A stretch of DNA of 64,000 nucleotides, taken from NCBI GenBank assembly GCA_963678705.1, contig OY783216.1:7564001-7628000 (forward strand), written 5' to 3'. Within the stretch, counting starts at the first letter, position 1. Each line of letters opens with the position of its first letter. This DNA is from Panorpa germanica (Eukaryota > Arthropoda > Insecta > Mecoptera > Panorpidae). This document shows, piece by piece, positions 4,766 to 7,821 of this stretch. The translations under genes were made by a program, and so were the position numbers. The notes beneath the pieces were generated by a model. The model saw nothing but the letters and a program-made list of their open reading frames with translations, was not told where the DNA came from and did no database searches.

Positions 4766-5474
4766 GATTATATATGCAGTATACAATTCTTGTACGATTT
4801 GTTTCTAATAGCTTGTGTACTCATTTTTTAGTGGTCGATTTTTTAATTGTTAAGTGAAATTGATGTTAATAAATGTGTATTGGCGTGTCTATTTTATTAA
4901 ATATATAATGTTAAAGAAGAGATATAGCAATTAAAAATTTGGATTATAGTTTTAGCGCTACAGATGTCGGTCATATTTATGACGTATTAAAAATACGTCA
5001 GTTTTTTTTTTGTTATATGTATAAGAGTTCTGTGTTGAATATGCTATCTCTTTTACGTTCTGTTGTATAAAAGAAATAGCAACTTAACAGACGTGCGTTC
5101 TACATGTCTTGGAATGTTCTATAACGTTGAATCCCTTTAATAATTAAAGGTACAATATGACCTTTTTAATTGTTAATATCTCCTGATATACAGTGAGTGT
5201 AAAAAGTATTCGTACACCTCGGTATGCAGAAAGAAAAACGAATTTTCTAGGCTTCCTGGTATATATTTTCTAAAAAACAAAATAGTATCAAACACTTCAA
5301 GGTTACAGCATTGTATTTATTAAAAAAAAAAAAGATTAAAAGAAAGACTGAGTGCGTGGTAAAAATAAATACGCACAATATATTCGAAATCACAAACAAA
5401 AAGTATTCGTACATTTCATAAATTAGTGACAAAATATAAAGAATTAGTGATGAAATAACAAAAAAATATAGTAA

Positions 5475-5921
5475 TTAATATTTTGTTGGTCCACCTCTTG
5501 CATTAATAATAGCTTGGAGTCTTCGTGGCATAGAATCAACTAGTTTAGAAGTGTAAGAAGACGGTATCAGAGCCCATTCCTCGCGAAGCGCGATTTTTAA
5601 TGTTTCTTTATTCGAAATGTGTCGTGTTCGAATTTTTTTGTCAAGATAATCCCACATATACTCTATAACATTAATATCGGGTGATTGAGGAGGTATTTCA
5701 AAGTGTTTTGAAGTGTTAAAGAGGATCCACATCTTGGTATTCCATGCTGTGTGCTTTGGATCGTTATCTTGTAAAAATATCCAATCATTATTAAAACCCA
5801 TTTCTGTTACACTGGCGGGAAGATTCTCTTTTAAGATATTAATATACACTTTTTGATCCATGATTCCATCAATAAATGCAAGTTTCCCCACTCCAGTAGC
5901 ACTCATACAACCCCAAACCAA
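5475..5921 (-). pseudogene. Tc1-type transposase, C-terminal half (left arm)
   Basis: The 148 codons contain [18 protein letters not shown], then [12 protein letters not shown] and [14 protein letters not shown]. From the Asp of QDND to the Glu of VIEYMW there are 34 intervening residues, the DD34E spacing of the Tc1 group. The helix-turn-helix DNA-binding region and the first catalytic Asp would lie upstream and are missing. The visible Met is therefore just the first ATG in a truncated frame, and the product cannot be an active transposase. The sequence is identical to the right-arm copy at the protein level. Confidence 0.92.
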
Positions 5922-6039
5922 AACAGAACCACCACCGTATTTTACCGTTGGAACTAAATTTTCTTTTTTTAATTCCGTGTTAGGTTTTCTCCATTATAAT
6001 ATAATATTATATTAATATTATATAAATATAATATTTTTA

Positions 6040-6581
6040 AATCGGACGGACATTATAAAGTATGGAGAAAACCTAACACGGAATTAAAAAAAGAAAATTT
6101 AGTTCCAACGGTAAAATACGGTGGTGGTTCTGTTTTGGTTTGGGGTTGTATGAGTGCTACTGGAGTGGGGAAACTTGCATTTATTGATGGAATCATGGAT
6201 CAAAAAGTGTATATTAATATCTTAAAAGAGAATCTTCCCGCCAGTGTAACAGAAATGGGTTTTAATAATGATTGGATATTTTTACAAGATAACGATCCAA
6301 AGCACACAGCATGGAATACCAAGATGTGGATCCTCTTTAACACTTCAAAACACTTTGAAATACCTCCTCAATCACCCGATATTAATGTTATAGAGTATAT
6401 GTGGGATTATCTTGACAAAAAAATTCGAACACGACACATTTCGAATAAAGAAACATTAAAAATCGCGCTTCGCGAGGAATGGGCTCTGATACCGTCTTCT
6501 TACACTTCTAAACTAGTTGATTCTATGCCACGAAGACTCCAAGCTATTATTAATGCAAGAGGTGGACCAACAAAATATTAA
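6040..6581 (+). pseudogene. Tc1-type transposase, C-terminal half (right arm)
   Basis: The same 148 residues as the left arm run from 6135. The open frame reaches further upstream to about 6040, reading [20 protein letters not shown] before [14 protein letters not shown]. So the right arm retains a few more transposase codons than the left one. The first catalytic Asp and the N-terminal DNA-binding domains are absent. It ends in a TAA, followed by the family's short 3' flank and terminal repeat. Confidence 0.92.
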
Positions 6582-7821
6582 TTACTATTTTTTTTTGTTA
6601 TTTCATCACTAATTCTTTATATTTTATCACTAATTTATGAAATGTACGAATACTTTTTGTTTGTGATTTCGAATATATTGTGCGTATTTATTTTTACCAC
6701 GCACTCAGTCTTTCTTTTAATTTTTTTTTTTTTAATAAATACAATGCTGTAACCTTGAAGTGTTTGATACTATTTTGTTTTTTAGAAAATATATACCAGG
6801 AAGCCTAGCAAATTCGTTTTTCTTTCTGCATACCGAGGTGTACGAATACTTTTTACACTCACTGTATAAGGAGTTATTAAAAAATAATTAGACATTTGAG
6901 GTTCTAGTAACCAACTTTATCAATATATAGTACAGTTTTATAGAAATTAAGACATAGGACACAAGCCCATTTTTGAACCTTTTACATTCTTGTAAGTTTT
7001 GTTTTGATTCTTGTTAAAATTGTTATTGCTATTAAAATCATAATTAATCTTTTGTGGATTAAATAAAGTCGTTTTGTGAGGTACTATAATCTTTAAAGGA
7101 CCTTCCTAAAGATAAGAAGATATATAAATATTTAAATACGAGTCTTCGACGCTTTAAAAAAAGTGATCGAAAATAAGTGACATTAATTAAATTAAAAACT
7201 TAGGAGGCCATCTAGAAATAGTATTTAATTATTTTTAAAAGCTCATTTAACTATTAACCGTAGCAGTTCTATCGAGTCTAGTTAGCCATCTACTATATTA
7301 GTTGTGGGTTTGATACTCTAATAAAATAAATGTAATTATAATTACGTAATTGCCCGCTAGATGGTACTAGTAGCAATTCTAATAAAACTCACTTTTCACT
7401 TTAATATGTTTGTTTGTTGGTCGTTGAGCTGTCATGGGTTTATTAGGGTTAGGACTTTGTAAATGTCCTTATTTCAATTTAATGAAGGATGTGAGAACCC
7501 TTCAGAGTAGACACAACTTAGACACTTAGTTGTTGTGTGTTTAATACGATCTAATTAAAATTCTAAAGGTCACTTATGGAATAACCACCTTGCGAAACGT
7601 TTAATAATATTAACATATTAAGGATTGTAATGAGTGCTATAAGTATTACAAATTATGCATTTAAAAAGTCTAGAAAGTTATCGAATTTCATGACATAGGG
7701 TCAGGTAAACAACATTTTATATATCAGTAACCTTTCACCTTTTAAAATGCGTTGTAATTGTAATTGAAGTCTCATTTCTTCCTCAAGTTGATGATAATTG
7801 TGTAAAAGTATTGACTTCAGT

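Follow-up and report, generated by a model that had tools for sequence, protein, structure and literature searches.

The window, a stretch of 64,000 nucleotides of Panorpa germanica DNA, contains at positions 5191-6864 a 1674-bp inverted repeat, in which a Tc1/Sleeping Beauty-like transposon is represented by two copies of its 3' half, joined as a dimer. Its parts are given below by window position, with P designating the coordinates of the full-length copy L045 (1662 bp); the window copy itself is L001.

5189-5190, no strand: left TA, target site duplication (single TA in all 4 of the uninterrupted paralogues aligned)
5191-5994, minus strand: left arm, 3' half, P1662 to P860 reversed
5191-5413, no strand: left terminal inverted repeat with outer and inner direct repeat (IR/DR), 223 bp in the parent
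5475-5921, minus strand: left-arm ORF, 148 aa, C-terminal catalytic part of the transposase
5995-6023, no strand: apex, 29-nt AT-rich filler
6024-6864, plus strand: right arm, 3' half, P822 to P1662
6135-6581, plus strand: right-arm ORF, 148 aa, C-terminal catalytic part of the transposase
6643-6864, no strand: right terminal inverted repeat
6865-6866, no strand: right TA, target site duplication

The inverted arms are 100% complementary over 672 nt (5323-5994 and 6062-6733) and 97% complementary over their outermost 154 nt (5187-5340 and 6715-6868), with 4 substitutions among 803 aligned sites when the arms are compared with each other. Chance can be excluded as the origin of this palindrome, because a 0.8-kb repeat is involved that has relatives at dozens of places. 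The right arm reaches inward to P822 (or P821) and the left arm to P860, leaving about 38 additional transposase-derived bases on the right; the initial annotation had recognized this surplus at the centre of the right arm, but had put it at 22 bases. It had also described both ends of the element as 3' termini. Two 3' halves are indeed present, but the outer 223 bp fit either end of the parent equally well, since the terminal inverted repeats (TIRs) of the parent are 99.1% identical, and the 3' origin of the arms therefore rests on the inner ~580 bp of each.

As proposed from the sequence alone, each arm carries the same 148 C-terminal transposase codons, the translations of 5475-5921 (minus strand) and 6135-6581 (plus strand) being identical. 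Read in frame from position 6042, the right arm matches the Pfam DDE_3 domain (E 3.8e-07) and the Sleeping Beauty catalytic domain (PDB 5cr4, E 2.8e-47). By-eye counting in the window-arm translation places 34 residues between the second Asp and the Glu (QDND to NVIE), which we take to be the DD34E catalytic motif with Tc1 spacing. The DD34E-type DDE domain, the TA duplication and the IR/DR repeats identify the element as Tc1-like (Sleeping Beauty-type, IS630-Tc1-mariner), in agreement with its original assignment to the Tc1 family. The arms lack the DNA-binding domain and the first catalytic Asp, the right arm beginning at P822, downstream of the TDES codons; the element is therefore a non-autonomous derivative rather than a complete transposon and, as had been anticipated, requires a full-length helper. 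Classification as a MITE (short, under about 600-800 bp, non-coding and of high copy number) was considered and rejected, given the length of 1674 bp, the transposase sequence in both arms and the presence of at least 27 two-arm loci. The arm ORFs look like neutral passengers: 22 of 110 derived states are synonymous against an expected 24% (p 0.37), so that selection on them was rejected, 6 derived states create stops, and this neutrality test of derived states gave no pointer to a cellular role.

Besides the two arm ORFs, the window (1-64000) holds no other closed ORF of at least 130 aa, and it yielded no Rfam match at gathering score. Another Tc1/mariner-like family, about 31-32% identical to the transposase of the window palindrome, was observed on several contigs (for instance at C213:25053-25514, C13:13924345-13924806 and C6:14490338-14490799), and in a number of cases its open frames span about 400-440 aa and are possibly still intact.

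The sequences flanking the palindrome (5091-5190 and 6867-6966) belong to a very common repeat with 3997 first-look candidates in the assembly. Searching with the two flanks joined in the absence of the element returned at least 42 matches elsewhere, 41 of which cross the join at 88-92% identity, with 40 of the 3997 first-look candidates scored and a query two bases short at the join. The four flank paralogues that were fetched all align gaplessly and carry a single TA. The palindrome is therefore one insertion into this repeat, and the earlier claim of insertion at TA as one unit is borne out by the TA on both sides and by the single TA of these empty sites.

We examined 40 related loci (L001-L006 and L037-L070). 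The copy search scored 40 of 61 first-look candidates, and the copy numbers given here are thus lower bounds. Both arms are visible in 27 of the 40 (L001-L006, L037-L041, L043, L047-L050 and L052-L062), with one arm reduced to 31-60 nt in L041, L058 and L062. All 23 palindromes that retain both tips are bordered by TA on both sides. These represent 22 insertions, as L049 (C16:391093-394094) and L050 (C16:1174445-1177094) share the same flanks and are one insertion copied by a segmental duplication, which looks recent (99.66% identity across 2650 bp, the two lying some 783 kb apart on the same contig). Comparison of the flanks of 26 loci, with L050 set aside, revealed no two that belong together, and three short flank matches among them look like shared repeats. 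Furthermore, the window apex, searched as a 50-nt string, occurs at ten places including the window, nine of them exact and the tenth (L066, a fragment) with one mismatch, compared to none for the reversed control. The other copies with an identical inner junction that the initial annotation had called for are thus found at nine further loci, eight of them exact, contrary to the outcome that would have refuted its reading, and L040 carries a variant of this apex. A second apex is present at 12 loci (10 exact, 2 with one mismatch; reversed control 0), again in L056 with a small deletion, and in a related form in L043, L044 and the half-palindrome L042. Side-specific arm differences are common to L004, L039 and L041, which therefore must have moved as units.

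These data show that the palindrome spread as a unit to separate TA sites, and the window element is almost certainly a palindromic Tc1 derivative that moved in this way. Fold-back artefacts do occur in long-read libraries, and the merging of such reads into a false palindrome would offer a technical explanation for the locus. This explanation is scarcely credible here, because the same apex lies at ten places, all seven same-apex places with both tips (L001-L006 and L037) bear TA on both sides, the flanks of nine of the ten (all but L066) include no two that belong together, and the window copy has an exact empty site. The window palindrome is not an assembly error of its locus. As a separate observation on the assembly (464 Mb), exact 30-base runs of TTAGG or TCAGG, both common insect telomere units, have no match anywhere in it.

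The only full-length copy found, L045 (C11:6266114-6267775), has TIRs of 223 bp (P1-223 and P1440-1662), each holding a 16-bp motif twice (P11-26 and P208-223 in the former) in the IR/DR layout, and its ORF is interrupted by one stop. The 3' half of this parent recurs at dozens of places in the assembly. A search for its 5' half (P224-820) returned three places only: L045 itself, a second copy ending at P950 (C2:17890890, 89%) and 76 nt within L038. For every full-length element among the copies found there are more than 20 palindromes. The assembly matches include no intact transposase of this family and, as the ORF of the sole full-length copy found is interrupted, the family has probably ceased to move, except if transposase is supplied by a source that the assembly does not contain.

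Comparison of inner junctions indicates that dimers of this kind formed repeatedly. The type A apex, carried by the window copy, and the second apex class break within about 30 bp of each other, and L042, L046, L051 and L044 have some of their inner markers in common with type A, suggesting that one class may derive from the other. The L038 junction is independent: P745 is joined to P893 with no visible microhomology, and the copy contains P745-802, absent from the other classes, with a single-copy stretch of 148 nt. In the older L074 (79-83% identical), whose right tip is missing, reversed P1662-1029 is joined to P1409-1511; the right stretch fits the 5' TIR in part, but P1409-1439 is specific to the 3' side. 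On the basis of the second apex class, the independent L038 junction and the older L074 remnant, 3'-3' dimers arose at least twice (once for type A and the second class, once for L038), and L074 probably records a third event, or there were more. L075 and L076 are older relics with one arm only.

The second apex changes strand at TATTTA/TAAATA, an inverted repeat of 6 nt (P803-808/P821-826). The bottom-strand copy in L043 stops at P803-808 and resumes on the top strand at P821-826, L044 presents the same switch in the opposite direction, and the right arm of the window copy starts at the same 6-nt word (P821-826). L044 (C21:26873128-26876245), which has both tips, has a centre in which several short copies of P809-842, some forward and some reversed, follow one another, looking as if synthesis had slipped back and forth. 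At the same place as the young apices, L070 (C19:13256457-13259573, positions 1160-1428), 85-90% identical in most pieces, has P801-849 inverted directly before P848, and could be a collapsed palindrome or a simple inversion.

We propose that the dimer originated in the germ line when DNA synthesis traversed a full-length copy, most likely while a gap left by excision was being repaired. Synthesis would have run inward from the 3' end to the middle of the element, changed strands near P803-833 and returned to the 3' terminus, yielding an inverted dimer of 3' halves with two complete IR/DR ends. Because both ends were kept, such a dimer could be cut and pasted in trans. It spread as a unit to separate TA sites, after which the arms would have exchanged sequence within each copy and with other copies, keeping the palindrome nearly perfect. 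To this explanation as a whole, comprising strand-switch dimer, spread as a unit and homogenization of the arms by gene conversion, we assign a probability of roughly 0.55.

The snap-back or template-switch repair suggested in the initial annotation is plausible in view of the strand switch at the 6-nt inverted repeat of the second apex, but draws no help from the filler or from the L038 join. Among 2000 dinucleotide shuffles, the longest match of the filler was reached by 287 for the window apex, 224 for L043, 233 for L044 and 1645 for L047; templating of the filler from nearby sequence is thus not significant, and the snap-back reading rests on the position of the switch. The parent has 8 distinct short inverted repeats of apex size (9 listings), so that the presence of one at the apex is unremarkable on its own. 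Local hairpin energy was rejected as proof of a hot spot, since the apex region, although it ranks among the lowest 7.7% of 40-nt windows, is surpassed by hairpins near P449, the strongest of the parent.

Two other routes to the dimer were weighed. The first differs from the strand switch in the formation step only and uses a sister or ectopic element as template: after excision, the near identity of the 223-bp TIRs would let the left broken end reinvade the 3' TIR, both ends would copy the 3' half inward, and the two tracts would be joined end to end. Independent end points of this kind would account for the L038 join (P745-P893, without visible microhomology) and for the very unequal arms of L049/L050 and L074, and the 99.1% identity of the TIRs also speaks for this route; in the parts of their account drawn on here, the Galileo authors describe a TIR repaired from the other TIR, with a tract reaching internal sequence (PMC3573991). 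The two abundant classes, however, have arm ends that lie no more than about 40 nt apart or share one inverted repeat, a coincidence that independent ends would rarely produce, and the unequal arms of L049/L050 can also be explained by deletion at the centre. We therefore regard this route as a real possibility, though an unlikely one. The second route, in which abortive gap repair would cause an internal deletion spanning two adjacent elements, has the merit of having been published for the same end product, Rpmar49 and Rpmar17, where the available description invokes head-to-tail copies (PMC4678618); for inverted 3' ends, an inverted pair would be expected instead. Full-length elements were never seen in pairs, and matches to the 5' half number only three in the whole assembly, making this route a decidedly improbable origin for the dimer.

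The arms also bear on what happened after the dimer had formed. If arms diverge freely after movement as a unit, divergence between the arms of a copy must be at least as large as same-side divergence between sister copies, but on average it proves smaller. In seven type A copies (L001 left out; L040, L041 and L066 unusable because an arm is missing or broken), the arms of a copy differ by 0.78%, compared to 1.36% between copies on the same side and 1.40% on opposite sides, and only 5 of 20000 random re-pairings were as low as observed; with L001 added, the values are 0.75% and 1.63% (1 of 20000). For type B the signal is weak: eight copies, excluding L047, L052, L058, L061 and L062 on account of a different centre or broken arm, give 0.65% within and 0.74% between copies (212 of 20000 re-pairings), and it is absent from the TIR part. 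Of 20 copies placed in a tree of 55 sequences, 11 have sister arms and 9 do not, and private substitutions in 20 copies fall in both arms of a copy in 11 cases and in one arm in 69.

Diagnostic sites give a related picture. With gaps and third states set aside, and with the mosaic copies L001, L004 and L039 included, the arms of the 13 tabulated copies agree in group state at all comparable sites but one. The window copy L001 combines a type A apex with group II TIR haplotypes in both arms; the copy differs by 2.3-2.6% from the arms of type A and by 1.3% from those of group II. One short group II tract occurs in both arms of L004 and likewise in both arms of L039. The arms thus show a homogenization pattern that is clear in type A and weak in type B, the simplest cause of which is probably gene conversion between arms and between copies. 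Since the arms appear homogenized within copies, their near identity does not show that the dimer is recent. The description of the window element as recent-looking, drawn from arm identity, is consequently unsupported, type A arms being closer to each other than to the same side of sister copies and both window arms being mosaic.

The likeness of the arms might instead reflect young palindromes or assembly polishing with no gene conversion. Overall arm divergence within copies is only 0.3-1.6%, nine of the 20 copies have non-sister arms, and the pattern was read from assembled sequence rather than from reads. The arms of L006, L052 and L048 differ by 1.5%, 1.6% and 1.1%, in each case more than one of the two differs from an arm of another copy, as in other examples too; the left arm of L006, for instance, is 0.9% from L037. 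Against this account, same-apex sister copies differ more than arms do, L001 is mosaic in both arms, and the side-specific differences of L004, L039 and L041 survive, so that polishing does not erase everything, though it could produce part of the likeness; we consider the account as a whole improbable, and retain gene conversion as the preferred cause.

Twelve one-arm copies were placed, four of them also among the 27 two-arm loci. In 6 of the 12 the lost arm ends at most 100 nt from the apex, compared to 1.5 expected with even cuts (p 0.002), in a post hoc test with the apex assigned by hand for each copy and with some of the 12 perhaps not derived from palindromes; palindromes may therefore break at their centre. 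The one-arm copies ending at or near the apex are L042, L041, L062, L058, L051 and L046. Taken together, these patterns lead us to offer, tentatively and at somewhat less than even odds, the idea that the palindrome is a self-correcting form of transposon. In this view Tc1 copies would fold repeatedly into dimers of their 3' half, often at one fragile spot in the middle of the element, and the arms would copy each other and other palindromes, so that the hairpin stays near perfect, outlives the transposase gene and often breaks at its apex.

The closest precedents for the window palindrome that we have identified are Rpmar17 and Rpmar49 of Rhodnius and Tc6. The latter, from C. elegans and attributed to Dreyfus and Emmons (1991), is reportedly a palindrome of about 1.6 kb with Tc1-like ends and long arms. 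The likeness to Tc6 is one of overall layout; for the window palindrome, descent from the 3' half of an identified parent can be read from the sequence.

Rpmar17 and Rpmar49 are mariner lineages of Rhodnius prolixus in which the 5' part was replaced by the 3' part, and the sections of that report used here state that Rpmar49 has transposase sequence in the rearranged part and spread from one progenitor by transposition (PMC4678618). The window palindrome likewise has its 5' part replaced by an inverted 3' part that includes transposase sequence and, like Rpmar49, spread as a rearranged unit by transposition. The end product, a 3'-3' rearranged element, is therefore already known. In contrast with the mariner lineages, the element described here is Tc1/Sleeping Beauty-like. 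Rpmar17 has breakpoints around one region and a longest copy of over 1700 bp, but its copies are nearly all under 1000 bp with variable breakpoints (PMC4678618), whereas the present family has near-complete 0.8-kb arms and one apex, and spread as units. The portions of the Rpmar17/Rpmar49 account consulted make no mention of arm homogenization (PMC4678618), and we found no report of it in a Tc1 palindrome in the open-licence literature, as searched by titles and abstract openings.

Other comparisons, each limited to the cited portions of the source, are more distant. Galileo, of the P superfamily in Drosophila, has TIRs lengthened by the terminal part of its transposase ORF and occurs as chimeric copies; the TIRs of one copy are 98-100% identical, and exchange and conversion between copies have been proposed (PMC4168063, PMC3573991). 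Unlike the window palindrome, it belongs to another superfamily, generates a 7- or 8-bp target site duplication and combines large TIRs with an internal region. Bari elements with long TIRs are Tc1-mariner members whose TIRs of about 250 bp bear direct repeats and which have non-autonomous derivatives, but the related MITEs are explained by internal deletion and not as 3'-3' palindromes (PMC4877112). Reports of palindromic elements also exist for C. elegans, D. melanogaster and Anopheles (PMC3212995).

How a full transposon becomes a hairpin element is still argued over. Because the genome studied here contains a full-length parent and, beside two abundant palindrome classes, an independent junction as well as older remnants, the junctions can be read directly. 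Hairpin elements and inverted duplications are often called recent because their arms are alike; if the homogenization of the arms is true, this criterion can make them look younger than they are.
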